Below, in pieces: positions 9,414-18,483 of a stretch of 64,000 nucleotides of DNA. Under the pieces are notes generated by a model. That model was given only the letters and a program-made list of their open reading frames with translations, had not been told where the DNA came from and did not search any database. Position numbers and translations under genes: made by a program. Source of the stretch: Verrucomicrobiales bacterium (GTDB lineage Bacteria > Verrucomicrobiota > Verrucomicrobiia > Verrucomicrobiales > DEV007); assembly GCA_029212615.1 (NCBI GenBank), contig JARGPJ010000007.1, forward strand, positions 196,354 to 260,353, in the 5' to 3' direction. Each line of letters starts with the position of its first letter. The first letter of the stretch is position 1.

Positions 9414-10107
9414 CCCGGCTTTCAGACAGTAGGATCAGGAAGGGGGGGTATCGTTGTCATTTTTGACAAAGACGGGGAAATCAGGCACTGGGATCGTCTT
9501 AAATCTTTCGAGTAATTTTTTACATAATGAGAAAAACAGCTCTCAAATGTGAAAAAGTTTTTAAAAGTAAGTTGCATATGTTAAAAATATCGGTAAGGTT
9601 GATTATCGCCGAAACGAAAAAACAGTGTTTCTTTGCATGTATTTCATCCCCCTAACCGATTCCTATTCCTCTTCGCTCACGACGAGTGGGGAATGGTTTG
9701 TCAGGGGGAAGGCGGGATCTTTTCCAACACAAACAGACAGATCCACAGGTTTGCTCAGTCGGAGTTCTAACTCGTTGAGCGTCAAATTGGTTCATTGGTA
9801 AGGTTTGGGAGGTAACGATCAAAAAGCTCTCTTGTTTATTTAGCTGCTTGATCGTTCCTTCCGAGTTGAGGGGTAGTCGCAGTCCGGGTCATTGGCAGGT
9901 GTCCGGGCTGCGACTCGTTTCATTAAAGTCTTCATACTGTTAACAGCGCTTAATGGTGTAAGTGACGAAGCTGTCGCTTTAACAAACATCGGTTCAGGAG
10001 ATAATCGGATTACGATTTTCGATGAAATGATCTGTTCAATTCACCGCAGATTGAGGTGGCTCCCGGATTATCCGGAAAAGCACGATTGAATACGAAAATT
10101 GAATACG
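9414..10107. other. 694-bp non-coding region, leader of the agt-plcP-phoU operon
   Basis: No convincing gene lies here. The stretch 9490-9620 is much more AT-rich than the surroundings and probably holds promoter elements. A small inverted repeat TTGTCA-TTTT-TGACAA (9454-9469) follows cmk without a strong T tract. Two larger hairpins lie at 9814-9914. No match to the Escherichia coli PHO box (CTGTCATA repeats) was found by eye. Its length suggests a long regulated 5' leader. Confidence 0.7.
9814..9914 (+). promoter_or_regulatory. Two consecutive stable hairpins in the agt leader
   Basis: Hairpin 1 (9814-9856) pairs AACGATCAA with TTGATCGTT perfectly, with an inner AGCT/AGCT helix and a U-rich loop. 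Hairpin 2 (9876-9914) pairs 13 bases (GTCGCAGTCCGGG with TCCGGGCTGCGAC, two wobble pairs) around a 13-nt loop. They end about 190 bp before the glycosyltransferase start. They could be a structured leader element, an attenuator or a small RNA. I do not recognise a known riboswitch. Confidence 0.5.
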
Positions 10108-11271
10108 ATGAAAGTTACGTTTGTTACCGATACCTACTCTCCCCAGGCAAATGGCGTGGCGACGACTCTTGAGCGCCTTGTTAAGGGCTTGCGTGAGCGT
10201 GGACACGATGTCGACGTGGTTCGTCCCGCCGTACTCGCCTGTGATGAAGAGGGCCTTGAGGTTCCTTCGATCGGATTGCCCGGTTACAAGGAGGTGCGTT
10301 TTGGATTTCCAATGAAGCTGGTTCTACAGGCCCGTTGGTATAAGCGCCGCCCTGATGTGATCTACGTGGCCACCGAGACACCGTTGGGCGCCTCTGCTAT
10401 TTCCGCGGCGCGGGCTCTGGGCATTCCGGCTGCCTCCGGCTTTCACACAAATTTTCAGCAATACATGGCCCATTACCAAGTGCCGCTGTTGGAGAAGGCC
10501 GCGGTTCGTTATCTCCGCCACGTTCACAATCGTTCGACCTGCACTTTTGTTCCATCACGTGATGTCATCGCAGATCTCGACTCGCGTGGTTTCCACAACC
10601 TGGAGCTTCTGCCGAAAGGGGTTGATACAAAACTCTTTTCACCGAAGAAACGTTCCCAGGCGCTGCGTCAGTCGTGGGGCGCGCGGGAGGGAACTCTCGT
10701 TGGGTTATCGGTCGGCCGTATTGCTGCCGAGAAGAACCTTCCTTTGTTGGTGAAGAGTTTCCTCGAGATTCAGAAACGCATCCCGGATTTTCGCGGAGTC
10801 TTTGTCGGCGACGGGCCAAAGCTCGAAGAGTTGAAGCGGGATTACCCACAGTTTGTTTATCCCGGTGTGCTTCGGGGGGAAGAACTTGCTGAGTACTACG
10901 CTTCGGCCGATCTCTTTCTTTTTCCGAGCATCACGGAAACATTCGGGAATGTAACGATGGAAGCAATGGCCAGTGGTCTCGCCGTGGTGGCCTACGATTA
11001 TGCGGCTGCGCGTCAGCATATCAAGCACGGTGAAAATGGATTCTCAGCTCCTTTTGATGACGACGAGGCCTACCTCGATCTCGTTCTCTCGGTGGCGAAG
11101 CGTGATCTTTCCGAGGTGCGTCAGGCAGCTCGGGAGTCGGCGAGAAGGGTTCGCTGGAAGAAAGTGATCAAGCGATTTGAGAAGCAGCTCGAAGTATTAG
11201 CTTCGGGCGAAACGATTTTACCGACGCCGGAAAGTCTCGAGGCGGAAGAACTTACCAATGGTCTTTCATGA
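10108..11271 (+). CDS. GT4 glycosyltransferase, probable diacylglycerol glycosyltransferase (Agt-like)
   Basis: This 387-residue GT-B protein opens with KVTFVTDTYSPQANGVATTL, the donor-family glycine-rich start. Its C-terminal nucleotide-sugar motif is ITETFGNVTMEAMASG (E-x7-E type). It resembles lipid glycosyltransferases of the MgtA/SQD2/Agt kind. The start is the ATG at 10108; an in-frame TTG lies 9 nt before it. The stop overlaps the metallophosphoesterase start (ATGA), so the two are translationally coupled, and phoU follows. That context suggests it glycosylates diacylglycerol to replace phospholipids under phosphate shortage. The exact sugar and acceptor are inference. Confidence 0.8.
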   Translation: MKVTFVTDTYSPQANGVATTLERLVKGLRERGHDVDVVRPAVLACDEEGLEVPSIGLPGYKEVRFGFPMKLVLQARWYKRRPDVIYVATETPLGASAISAARALGIPAASGFHTNFQQYMAHYQVPLLEKAAVRYLRHVHNRSTCTFVPSRDVIADLDSRGFHNLELLPKGVDTKLFSPKKRSQALRQSWGAREGTLVGLSVGRIAAEKNLPLLVKSFLEIQKRIPDFRGVFVGDGPKLEELKRDYPQFVYPGVLRGEELAEYYASADLFLFPSITETFGNVTMEAMASGLAVVAYDYAAARQHIKHGENGFSAPFDDDEAYLDLVLSVAKRDLSEVRQAARESARRVRWKKVIKRFEKQLEVLASGETILPTPESLEAEELTNGLS

Positions 11272-12110
11272 AAAAGAACGAATACCACAGCATCTTCATT
11301 TCTGATGTTCACCTTGGAACCCGCGACAGTAAAGCGGTTGAAGTGATCGAGTTTCTGAAGGCAACAAGATGTAAAAAGCTCATTCTCAATGGTGACATTG
11401 TGGATGGCTGGGCATTACGCGGCGGCGGTCGATGGCTCCCGGAGCACACCAAGTTCGTTCGTACCGTTCTCAAGAAGATGGAGAAGCAGGGGACGGAAGT
11501 CATTTACCTGAGGGGAAATCACGATGATATCCTTGAGCGTTTTCTTCCGATCAATTTCGGCAATCTCAGAATCGTGGATGAGTATATTCACGAAACCCCA
11601 CGGGGCGATTACCTTGTCGTTCACGGAGATGGATTCGACTCCGTGACAACGAGTCATCGCTGGATGGCGATTGCCGGGGCAAAAGGTTATGAGCTTCTTC
11701 TCGGGGTGAATCGTCTCTACAACCGTTGGCGTTCGTTCCGCGGAAAGGAGTACTACTCGCTCAGTAAGAAAATTAAAGAGAAGGTCAAGTCGGCTGTGAG
11801 TTTTGTGGATCGCTATGAAGATCAATTGAAGGAACTGGCACTCGTTCGTCACTGTTGCGGCATTATTTGCGGTCACATTCATACGCCGGCGGATAAAGAT
11901 CTCGATGGCGAGGTTCACTATTTGAATTCCGGAGACTGGGTTGAGTCGCTTACTGCGATTGTTGAGACAGAGCCCGGAGAGTTCGAACTCATTCATCATG
12001 ACGAGTTTATGGCTCGCCGTGAGACAAGTGAAAGTCTCGTTGAGCATGAATCGGATTTTGTTGAAGCATCCGAAGAGGAGGTTTCCTCAACCGTCGTTGC
12101 GGCGGCGTGA
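11268..12110 (+). CDS. Calcineurin-type metallophosphoesterase, probable PlcP-like phospholipase C
   Basis: This 280-residue protein has all the metallophosphoesterase motifs: D13-x-H15, GD at 42-43, GNHD at 83-86, HGD at 119-121 and GHIH at 202-205. The family contains LpxH (UDP-2,3-diacylglucosamine hydrolase) and PlcP, a phospholipase C used under phosphate starvation in Sinorhizobium and marine bacteria. It is longer than a typical LpxH, is coupled by ATGA to a GT4 enzyme and precedes phoU. This favours the PlcP role of releasing diacylglycerol for glycolipid synthesis. LpxH-like activity remains the alternative. Confidence 0.78.
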   Translation: MKKNEYHSIFISDVHLGTRDSKAVEVIEFLKATRCKKLILNGDIVDGWALRGGGRWLPEHTKFVRTVLKKMEKQGTEVIYLRGNHDDILERFLPINFGNLRIVDEYIHETPRGDYLVVHGDGFDSVTTSHRWMAIAGAKGYELLLGVNRLYNRWRSFRGKEYYSLSKKIKEKVKSAVSFVDRYEDQLKELALVRHCCGIICGHIHTPADKDLDGEVHYLNSGDWVESLTAIVETEPGEFELIHHDEFMARRETSESLVEHESDFVEASEEEVSSTVVAAA

Positions 12111-12161
12111 AGGGATTAATATTTAGTTTAGCCGTATCGGTGTCATAGTGAGGTGCCTACC

Positions 12162-12869
12162 ATGTCTGAATACTCTCATCGCCTCGGAAACTTTGATGCC
12201 GCGCTGCGCGAAGCTCGTGACAGCATCCTCCGCATGGCCAGCATTGCTGAACAGAATCTCGAGAGTGCGATCCGTGGATTGCTGACTCGAAATGCCGAGT
12301 TCTGCAATACGGCCATTGTCGAAGATGATGAGGTTAATTTTCTTGAGCGGAAAATCGATGCTGATTCTTTCGAGATTCTGATGCGATACAATCCGGTGGC
12401 AAGTGACCTTCGCGAGGTAATTGCCGGCATGAAAGTGGCGAATAACCTGGAGCGGGTCTCTGATGAGGCGCAGAATATCGCGCGTCGTGCCCGTAAAATT
12501 TTGAAGCACCCTGAGATCAAGGCCGCTGCTCTGATCGAGCCGCTTTACGAGAAAGCCTTGAGCATTTTGCAAGACGGGATGCGATCCTACGCGGAAGGCG
12601 ATAACGATCTCGCTATCTCACTGTATGAGCGGGACCGGGCACTCGATATGGCTCATAACGATGTCATTCGGGAATTAACGAAGCAGATGGATAGTGATTC
12701 CATCCGCGTGAAGTCATACCTTCATCTCATTTTTATCGTGCGAAGCCTCGAGCGGGTTGGCGATCATGCCGTGAATATCGCTGAAGACGGGATCTTTCTC
12801 GAGAGCGCGACCGATGTCAGGCATCTTGGTCCCAAGCGAGCCGCTGCTGAGATTGAGGCTCACATCTAG
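12162..12869 (+). CDS. phoU: Phosphate signalling protein PhoU
   Basis: This 235-residue all-helical protein has the two PhoU metal-motif repeats. The first is ADSFEILMRYNPVASDLREV...NNLERVSDEAQNI; the second is MDSDSIRVKSYLHLIFIVRSLERVGDHAVNI. PhoU modulates the Pst transporter and PhoR, restraining the Pho regulon when phosphate is ample. GAGG at 12150-12153, 8 nt before the ATG at 12162, supports this start. No pst or phoBR genes are next to it; it closes the lipid-remodelling operon instead. Confidence 0.93.
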   Translation: MSEYSHRLGNFDAALREARDSILRMASIAEQNLESAIRGLLTRNAEFCNTAIVEDDEVNFLERKIDADSFEILMRYNPVASDLREVIAGMKVANNLERVSDEAQNIARRARKILKHPEIKAAALIEPLYEKALSILQDGMRSYAEGDNDLAISLYERDRALDMAHNDVIRELTKQMDSDSIRVKSYLHLIFIVRSLERVGDHAVNIAEDGIFLESATDVRHLGPKRAAAEIEAHI

Positions 12870-12871
12870 GA

Positions 12872-12895
12872 AAGGGGGCTAACCCTTCTTTTTTG
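12872..12895 (+). terminator. Probable intrinsic terminator after phoU
   Basis: AAGGG and CCCTT can pair around a short loop just after the phoU stop, followed by CTTTTTT. The stem is short, so this is a moderate call. Confidence 0.45.
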
Positions 12896-13062: not shown

Positions 13063-13098
13063 AGCAAAACAGGGTTGAGTGAAACACCCAACCCTGTT
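13063..13098 (-). terminator. Intrinsic terminator of rplM-rpsI
   Basis: Read on the minus strand, AACAGGGTTG pairs perfectly with CAACCCTGTT around an 11-nt loop and is followed by TTGCTTT. It lies about 50 bp beyond the rpsI stop. The stem is nearly the same as that of the terminator after the rpiB-glyA fusion. Confidence 0.8.
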
Positions 13099-17187: not shown

Positions 17188-18483
17188 ATGCGACGTTACG
17201 TTCTGACATTTTTATACATCGGGGGAGGTGTCTCTGCTTTAGTCCTCGTCTTGTTTTTCGTCGGCGTTTTCGAGCCTATGACGGAATGGCTTCGCTCAAA
17301 GTGGGTGAGTCAGGGACTTCTCGTCGAAGATGAGATGGTTCGAATGAAATGGATCGAGGGGCTGGTAATTATTTCTCTCGCTGCCGGTGTTTCCTGGTGT
17401 GTCATTGACGTGACGAATCCATCGCAGAAGGTCCTTGTGATTTTCTGCAGTGTTCTTCTCGTCCTGGGTTTTTCCCCTACCCTGGCATTACACGGGGTAC
17501 TTTTTGATCCGTTTTCGTCTCTGGCTGCTGTGGCTCTATCCGCAGCCGCTTCCTTTGTCTTTGCGGGGACGGAGAAAGGGATGAGGAAACGTGTGCTGGA
17601 GACCCTCATTGGACGTCGAGTCTCGCATCGTACTTTTAATGAGCTTCTTGAAGCGGATGAGCCGCCGGATTTCGGAGGGGTTTCCCGTGAAGTCACCGTG
17701 GTGACGTGTCGTCTTTTTAATCACGAAGAATTGCAGGCTAAGCTTAAGCCGTCGGACCTCGTAAAGATGAGTAATCTTTTTCTTCGGAGTGTTTCAACCT
17801 TCCTGACGGGGCGCGGTGCCTACCTCGATGAGTCGGGACCTGAACTGGTGCGGGGCTATTTCGGTATGTTAAAGCCATCGGAAAGCCATGCCTTTCATGC
17901 CTGTCGTGCCGCCTTGGAACTGAGGTCGAGACTCAAAAACTTGAGCAAGGAATGCGAAACCCGCTGGTTTCAGGGGCTCACCTATGGTGTTGGAATCAGC
18001 TCCGGACCCATGACCATTGGGGTATATGGAGCGGATGAGCATTTCTTTTTCAGTGGGATCGGGGCGGAGACGGACTATTCCCGCCGTCTTTCTCATGCGA
18101 ATGATCGATATGGCTCGGACCTCTTGATCGGGCCGCATACCTACCATCTGGTGAAGTCGGAATTTGAAGTGCGTCCGATGGAAATGTTCTTTGATCCCGC
18201 GGCGAACTTGATGACGGAGATATATCAGCTCCTCGCAACCAAAGAGGCTTTTGGAGAGGTTGAGAGGGAGCGTCGTGATTTATTCTGGCAGGGCGTTATT
18301 TTCCTGCGCGAAGAACGCTTTGAAGAAGCACTTGATCATCTCAGTCGTGCGCGAAATCCGGCTGGAGAGGATGCTCCCCTCGATTTCTTCATCGAACGGG
18401 CCCAGAGCGGCGTCGCTGATAAAGGTGTGGAGGGAGAGGCTGAAGCGCCCGGAAAGCATGCCCGCTTGATTAACCTCATGTGA
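17188..18483 (+). CDS. Degenerate class III adenylate/guanylate cyclase-like membrane protein
   Basis: This 431-residue protein has four hydrophobic segments in the first 130 residues, then a class III cyclase fold (about 165-350) and a TPR-like tail. The fold is recognised by SREVTVVTC, ESGPELVRGYFG, GVGISSG and SGIGAETDYSRRLSHAN. Both metal-binding aspartates seem lost: the first position is Arg175 and the second Glu219. It is therefore probably not an active cyclase and may be a sensor or scaffold. GGAGG about 11 nt upstream supports this start. The recR gene follows directly. Confidence 0.72.
   Translation: MRRYVLTFLYIGGGVSALVLVLFFVGVFEPMTEWLRSKWVSQGLLVEDEMVRMKWIEGLVIISLAAGVSWCVIDVTNPSQKVLVIFCSVLLVLGFSPTLALHGVLFDPFSSLAAVALSAAASFVFAGTEKGMRKRVLETLIGRRVSHRTFNELLEADEPPDFGGVSREVTVVTCRLFNHEELQAKLKPSDLVKMSNLFLRSVSTFLTGRGAYLDESGPELVRGYFGMLKPSESHAFHACRAALELRSRLKNLSKECETRWFQGLTYGVGISSGPMTIGVYGADEHFFFSGIGAETDYSRRLSHANDRYGSDLLIGPHTYHLVKSEFEVRPMEMFFDPAANLMTEIYQLLATKEAFGEVERERRDLFWQGVIFLREERFEEALDHLSRARNPAGEDAPLDFFIERAQSGVADKGVEGEAEAPGKHARLINLM

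Follow-up and report, generated by a model that had tools for sequence, protein, structure and literature searches.

A conserved agt-plcP-phoU gene set with an upstream Pho-box-like site is a probable phosphate-starvation lipid-remodeling operon in Verrucomicrobiales

Membrane lipid remodeling by PlcP and Agt is known from Sinorhizobium, SAR11, Pseudomonas aeruginosa (PA3219-PA3218), and Methylosinus (PMC4796936; PMC8528852; PMC9239053; PMC8231724; papers are cited here and below for their accessible parts). Gene pairs of plcP and agt with Pho boxes have been published (PMC4796936; PMC8528852), a PlcP has been reported from a single amplified genome of a verrucomicrobium (PMC4796936), and verrucomicrobial methanotrophs are described as having no PlcP (PMC9239053). 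Both PlcP and PhoU depend on PhoBR in Pseudomonas BIRD-1, where their locus tags lie far apart (PMC5082522). Here we describe an agt-plcP-phoU gene set in a Verrucomicrobiales bacterium, located in a 64,000-nucleotide stretch of DNA (the window; contig JARGPJ010000007.1 of assembly GCA_029212615.1, positions 196,354 to 260,353). Our analysis makes it likely that these genes are a phosphate-starvation (Pho regulon) operon that exchanges phospholipids for glycolipids.

Like the known PlcP-Agt systems, the locus combines a PlcP-type esterase gene with a neighboring gene for a lipid-type glycosyltransferase of family GT4, predicted Pho-box control, and a predicted swap of phospholipids for glycolipids. 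It differs from them in gene order, with agt preceding plcP whereas agt lies 3' of plcP in the known systems as described in the accessible text; in having phoU as third gene; in its glycosyltransferase, which is 31% identical to a P. aeruginosa Agt record (over 372 columns, E 6e-38); in a verrucomicrobial variant of the box; and in the fusion of the two enzymes in a related family. The verrucomicrobial PlcP published previously shares phylum and family with the window PlcP, and the accessible text mentions no phoU linkage, fusion, or verrucomicrobial Pho box (PMC4796936). Searches of an open-access library, which lacks most subscription papers, turned up no published plcP operon that includes phoU and no published fusion of Agt with PlcP, and the accessible parts of papers naming both PlcP and phoU mention no shared operon. 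PlcP-Agt remodeling and a verrucomicrobial PlcP are already published; the phoU linkage and the fusion are the new parts, in that neither was found in these searches.

The operon and its putative control site comprise the following features:

9960..9980, plus strand: Pho-box-like site AAGTGACGAAGCTGTCGCTTT, 127 bp 5' of agt (the 18 bp 9960-9977 were scored)
10108..11271, plus strand: agt-like GT4 glycosyltransferase gene (Pfam PF13439/PF00534, NCBIfam, BLAST), predicted to transfer sugar onto diacylglycerol
11268..12110, plus strand: plcP, PlcP-type metallophosphoesterase gene, predicted phospholipase C (identity to PlcP records, tree, motifs, single copy)
12153..12869, plus strand: phoU (TIGR02135 164 bits, cut-off 130)

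An initial annotation, made from the letters alone, had described a GT4 gene and a metallophosphoesterase gene joined by an ATGA overlap and followed by phoU. The reading frames, strands, and Pfam domains all agree with that description: agt and plcP share the four bases ATGA at 11268-11271, and the three genes run in the same direction. We set the agt start at the ATG at 10108, downstream of an in-frame TTG at 10099; phoU has a further ATG 9 bases inside, at 12162. The source genome is a 4.55 Mb draft, 94% complete.

Multiple comparisons place the esterase with PlcP proteins and not with LpxH. Its Pfam Metallophos score is 46 bits (cut-off 21.5) and, as the annotation's phrase "full-motif" had it, all five blocks of the metallophosphoesterase motif are present in the alignment (SDVH, GD, GNHD, HGD, GHIH). 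The protein is 39% identical to a Sinorhizobium meliloti PlcP record and 46% to a P. aeruginosa one, and is 22% identical to Escherichia coli LpxH with a BLAST E of 0.14. Both references came from a protein search of a plasmid collection (31 records). The S. meliloti record, of 281 amino acids, has acyl-homoserine-lactone synthase and LuxR genes nearby, a setting that we take to be that of SMc00171, the validated S. meliloti PlcP. The P. aeruginosa record, of 270 amino acids, overlaps a glycosyltransferase gene, and PA3219 is followed by PA3218 in a plcP-agt arrangement in that species (PMC8528852). We identify the two records as validated PlcPs by gene context, length, and papers, rather than by locus tags. 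In a 64-row tree, from which one sequence (G066) was left out, five LpxH or LpxH-like rows split from the esterase and the PlcPs with branch support of 100/99. At three motifs the esterase reads as PlcP: GNHD (GNRD in LpxH), HGDGFD (HGDTLC in LpxH), and GDWVES (GAWH in LpxH). The LpxH models TIGR01854 and PRK05340 give it 32.6 and 49 bits, failing both cut-offs (190 and 134). The same models give 389 and 364 bits for E. coli LpxH but 38-55 bits for the two PlcP references (39 and 45 on the first model). The identities, the tree split, and GNHD in place of GNRD bear out the original call of this esterase as PlcP.

It is very improbable that the esterase is instead the LpxH of this genome, catalyzing step 4 of lipid A synthesis, with the glycosyltransferase acting as an envelope-sugar enzyme. 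Public records do label such proteins UDP-2,3-diacylglucosamine diphosphatase, and the esterase, encoded by a single-copy gene (one match at E ≤ 10), is the sole match to the LpxH model in its own genome (32.6 bits, cut-off 190). The initial annotation had called for a check for a separate lpxH, and had named clustering of an only copy with true LpxH as one of two findings that would overturn its proposal. No other LpxH-model match was found in the genome; LpxI was found instead (145 bits), together with LpxC (314 bits), so that lipid A does not need the plcP gene. Nor does the esterase cluster with LpxH in the tree, and its BLAST E with E. coli LpxH likewise speaks against that role. The arginine form of the GNHD block is reported in LpxH only, and P. 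aeruginosa lpxH2 is cited as failing to replace lost E. coli lpxH (PMC3087551). The LpxH2 family of that paper shares the GNH(E/D) motif, and its S. meliloti (281 amino acids) and P. aeruginosa (270 amino acids) members have the lengths of both PlcP references (PMC3087551). LpxH2 is an older name, given when the function was unknown, and the accessible text mentions no glycosyltransferase, phoU, or phosphate link (PMC3087551). This suggests that many proteins annotated as UDP-2,3-diacylglucosamine diphosphatases, i.e., lipid A enzymes, are phospholipases C.

The first gene encodes a protein with two GT4 domains (PF13439 and PF00534, 99 bits each). Its best NCBIfam models are both lipid glycosyltransferases, namely N-acetylglucosaminyl-phosphatidylglycerol (GlcN-PG) synthase at 151 bits (cut-off 480) and monoglucosyldiacylglycerol (MGlcDAG) synthase at 118 bits (cut-off 400); the P. 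aeruginosa Agt record ranks the same two models first, at 60 and 51 bits. The window protein is 44-50% identical to the plcP-linked or fused glycosyltransferases of the four verrucomicrobial genomes compared (G044, G038, G136, G042), and this grouping with plcP-linked GT4 lipid enzymes upholds its earlier designation as a lipid-type glycosyltransferase. We call it Agt-like, a predicted diacylglycerol glycosyltransferase. That agt and plcP make a constitutive or other envelope glycolipid, e.g., one with sugar on phosphatidylglycerol, with phosphate sparing as a secondary effect, would agree with the phosphatidylglycerol-type synthase being the best model. We consider this improbable, since the validated P. 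aeruginosa Agt has the same top model, the upstream box is held in common with phosphate genes, and plcP lies near phosphate genes in several families (see below).

The gene set is conserved in the genus of the window and recurs beyond it. A PlcP match is present in 44 of the 56 relatives searched; the genus accounts for 33 genomes, of which 26 have one (own genome counted). Across the phylum, 120 of 387 sampled genomes have a match. We read 148 plcP loci, 27 from the genus (26 genomes) and 121 from elsewhere; eight weak or fragmentary neighborhoods of the 120 were excluded (G205, G208, G225, G236, G250, G328, G354, G413), as were some second places, and many of the stretches extend only 1.5 to 2.6 kb on each side. 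Within the genus, agt lies directly 5' of plcP on the same strand in 27/27 loci and phoU follows plcP by 25-134 bp in 24/27. In 77 of the 121 loci from elsewhere, a homologue of agt precedes plcP on the same strand, within the stretch examined. The full triple also occurs in four genomes of other families of the order (G040, G044, G047, G038), with agt 47-50% and phoU 44-48% identical to those of the window; by family, phoU lies 3' of plcP outside the genus in three of six rows of family f4 and in G038 of another family. Among named loci, taken as the best 80 of 588 related stretches, phoU follows plcP in L199 and L200, as well as in L192 and L194 of the genus.

Other arrangements were seen in the same survey. 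Three genomes have two plcP loci each: G015 (L052, L057), G267 (L114, L125), and G067 (L166, L182). In seven metagenome-assembled genomes named Opitutus, Opitutae, or Opitutaceae (L198, L202, L204, L207, L208, L210, L214), agt, a glycosyltransferase gene resembling monogalactosyldiacylglycerol (MGDG) synthase, a lipid kinase gene, and plcP run in one direction; L129 (2599-5664) has agt, lipid kinase, and plcP genes without the second glycosyltransferase. In L150 (651-4603) and L219, genes for a PHO4-type phosphate transporter and a DUF47 (PhoU-like) protein are divergent from plcP; 3' of plcP lies an MGDG-synthase-like glycosyltransferase gene. Across L217-L262, mostly Bacteroidota, a PlcP-like gene is followed by a different glycosyltransferase gene (P. 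distasonis type) in 37 of 46 loci, and in L255 a PhoU-like piece lies 5' of the PlcP-like gene.

A Pho-box-like site supports the prediction that phosphate controls agt-plcP. The sequence AAGTGACRAAGSTGTYGCTTT is common to the genus 5' of agt, the window copy being at 9960-9980. Of the 25 genus loci for which 200 bp or more of upstream sequence was available, 16 carry the box with at most two mismatches, 58-131 bp 5' of agt, and four more carry it with three to six. When the 21-mer AAGTGACGAAGCTGTCGCTTT was searched against the own genome at up to three mismatches, the site was unique; the backwards control gave two forward matches and one reverse match. A matrix built from the genus alone was applied to 108 held-out upstream regions, 13 of the 121 non-genus rows having been dropped for too little upstream sequence or a failed orientation check. 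It found sites in 32 regions at p ≤ 0.05 and 9 at p ≤ 0.01, against 8 and 2 for the reversed matrix.

Another matrix, which also included two phosphate sites of the own genome, those of the Na/Pi cotransporter (NaPi) and pstB genes, gave 52 and 30 (control 9 and 1); its sites at p ≤ 0.01 are 31-119 bp away from the gene that follows first. By family, it reached p ≤ 0.05 in 25/28 regions of f2 and 5/6 of f4. Its strongest self-similarity among lags 5-13 is at lag 11, and 11 bases is the spacing of Pho boxes. Matrices including the NaPi and pstB sites are partly circular because those sites helped to build or choose them; the tests that we trust most use matrices rebuilt without them, where the genus-only held-out signal is weaker. 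One such matrix, from ten other genera, was run on 104 upstream regions in pieces of the own genome and ranked the Na/Pi cotransporter gene (18.5), pstB on contig C13 (17.8), and agt (16.3) on top, with the fourth region at 11.9. The box 5' of agt is thus common to phosphate-transport genes. In E. coli promoters, the top match of the same matrix falls on the Pho box CTGTCATAAAGTTGTCAC in phoA (p 0.01) and, in pstS, on the opposite strand of the box (p 0.02); three other promoters gave p values of 0.16-0.83. Separately, the second-best box score in the 64 kb (15.9) falls at 17408, inside the open reading frame 17188-18483.

Regulatory genes also accompany the locus elsewhere. In G044, a PhoB-like gene (242 bits, cut-off 296) and a PhoR/PnpS-like gene are divergent from agt-plcP-phoU and have the box region in common with it. 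Two further loci carry PhoB/PhoR-like genes, called by similarity to the L060 proteins: in L212 (1341-4732) they are divergent from plcP, and in L191 (7053-8704) they lie about 2 kb 3' of agt-plcP. For the window phoU itself, no significant box was found (p = 0.31), which fits its co-transcription with agt-plcP. The initial annotation had proposed that the lipid genes answer to phosphate through PhoU. Phosphate control is supported by the site 5' of agt, the control element being the box and not phoU itself. The overall idea of that annotation is thus mostly right, with control probably exerted at the promoter.

Several observations weigh against this reading. No box was found at up to six mismatches 5' of agt in five of the 25 genus loci (G009, G015 twice, G016, and G023); both agt copies of G015 have, about 100 bp upstream, a partial match with 2 mismatches in 16, outside the limit of the count. 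With the matrix including the phosphate sites, the box is rare in some families at p ≤ 0.05 (5/23 in f9, 0/3 in f3, 0/4 in f32, 0/3 in f51). Among the 104 own upstream regions ranked by the ten-genera matrix, pstS is only sixth. In another test, neither the second pst cluster (p = 0.36) nor the phoU on C18 (p = 0.83) has a box, and two of nine chosen negative regions reach p ≤ 0.05. The best match in the E. coli phoB promoter differs from the known box. The E. coli Pho-box consensus itself is not significant 5' of agt (p = 0.46-0.73), although the NaPi site, from which the verrucomicrobial box was recognized, was identified with this consensus. On the enzyme side, the glycosyltransferase is only 31% identical to the validated Agt and falls below every NCBIfam equivalog cut-off shown.

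The position of phoU admits two explanations. The window PhoU matches Pfam PhoU in two stretches (128 bits). PhoU domains occur in the own genome on contigs C9, C12, and C18 only, where two further PhoU proteins and a Na/Pi cotransporter carrying a PhoU domain are encoded; one of these two PhoU proteins, 50% identical to that of the window, lies beside a Na/Pi cotransporter. Using a pstB model together with binding-protein and permease domains, we named two four-gene pst clusters (C7:366000-379000 and C7:222000-234000); a lone pstB lies at C13:22585-23331. There is no phoU beside either C7 cluster or the C13 pstB. The remark that this phoU lies apart from pst genes is true, yet no pst locus seen in the genome adjoins a phoU, so the window PhoU may serve the whole cell. 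There is accordingly a substantial chance, a little short of even, that it is the general PhoU of the cell, placed here by chance and with no special tie to lipids. In G005, a genome with no PlcP match, a 67% identical phoU remains about 0.4 kb from the RNA gene described below, as such a general role would allow. The two other PhoU proteins of the genome, one of them beside the Na/Pi cotransporter, argue against it, as does the recurrence of the agt-plcP-phoU triple in several families of the order.

In pst operons, phoU provides negative feedback, and a phoU behind a Pho box would fit the same function here. The window resembles the pstSCAB-phoU operon in placing phoU under a Pho box with phosphate-response genes, and differs in that its partners are lipid enzymes rather than the Pst transporter.

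Outside the genus, agt and plcP occupy one reading frame in 28 of the 121 loci. In family f2, the family of Persicirhabdus, which we take to be the GTDB family Akkermansiaceae, 27 of the 28 PlcP-bearing genomes sampled have the fusion (the exception is G239). Measured between stop codons in the stretches examined, the fused frames span 643-764 residues. No PlcP match was obtained in ten or more of the f2 genomes sampled. Pfam detected both enzymes in all three fused proteins submitted. A fusion in G038, of another family, is placed in the tree beside f4 (92/89) and not f2, and so probably arose independently. In-frame fusions occur in 8/80 named loci (L185-L190, L193, L195; best 80 of 588), with carriers including Rubritalea marina DSM 17716 (L193) and Persicirhabdus sediminis KCTC 22039 (L190, identical to G421 of f2); the fusion is thus present in strains from culture collections. 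In the fused proteins of G144 (L145) and G275 (L144), the glycosyltransferase half is a different enzyme, 25% identical to that of the window.

We propose the following mechanism for the phospholipid-to-glycolipid swap. At low phosphate, a PhoB-type regulator, predicted to be encoded in this genome, would bind the box 127 bp 5' of agt and bring about a single transcript of the three genes. PlcP would cut the phosphorylated head group off phospholipids, leaving diacylglycerol, and the GT4 enzyme would add to it a sugar from a nucleotide sugar, so that glycolipids would rise. PhoU from the same transcript may feed back on PhoR/Pst signaling and so limit the response. A bolder version, which is possible though doubtful, is that Verrucomicrobiota have a self-contained phosphate module, either as a bifunctional Agt-PlcP that channels diacylglycerol from lipase to glycosyltransferase (in one family) or as agt-plcP with its own PhoU as a local brake on membrane phosphorus instead of on the Pst transporter (in the genus of the window).

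Two further features flank the operon:

9824..9924, plus strand: gene for a conserved, structured non-coding RNA, in the interval from cmk to agt (covariance model)
12872..12887, plus strand: weak terminator-like stem, then CT6, directly 3' of phoU (suggestive only)

With the covariance model of the RNA, matches at E ≤ 0.01 were obtained in 28 of 56 relatives. Each of these genomes carries the RNA at a single place, where four of them show an additional match on the opposite strand; three matches outside the genus are weak. A further hairpin accompanies the RNA at about 9805-9860. Being a strongly conserved structure 5' of agt in the genus, the RNA could be imagined as a riboswitch-like leader that controls the operon. 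The likelihood of this is minimal, since the RNA is present in two genomes with no PlcP match (G005, G029), lies at the S9/L13 genes in G016 with agt-plcP on another contig, is on a different contig from agt-plcP in G009 and G023 (drafts, in which contig breaks may contribute), and is far from plcP in G047 and G039 of other families (weaker matches). Occurring without or away from plcP, it is probably a separate RNA gene. We therefore rejected the riboswitch leader and, as far as tested, the RNA is not part of the control of the operon. Rfam returned only three eukaryotic families for the upstream region, far under their cut-offs, and none plausible even at E ≤ 5. No match to 6S RNA (RF00013) was found in the own genome, so the RNA is possibly a divergent 6S RNA.

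Upstream of agt, cmk lies 694 bases away, and the genes for ribosomal proteins S9 and L13 lie 3' of phoU on the opposite strand. Scans of the region found four terminator-like sites (4.2 expected from shuffles) and four promoter sites against 3.0 expected; none of these promoter sites is on the forward strand. On the minus strand, the S9 gene is followed by a terminator-like stem of 14 pairs at 13068-13098.

Phosphate-controlled lipid remodeling was established in Proteobacteria, and these findings would extend it to a large phylum. The box 5' of agt-plcP is a testable promoter element, and candidate genes of the phosphate regulon in Verrucomicrobiota can be listed by others with the box model. 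The fused Agt-PlcP provides a gene-fusion argument that both enzymes act on one flux of diacylglycerol.

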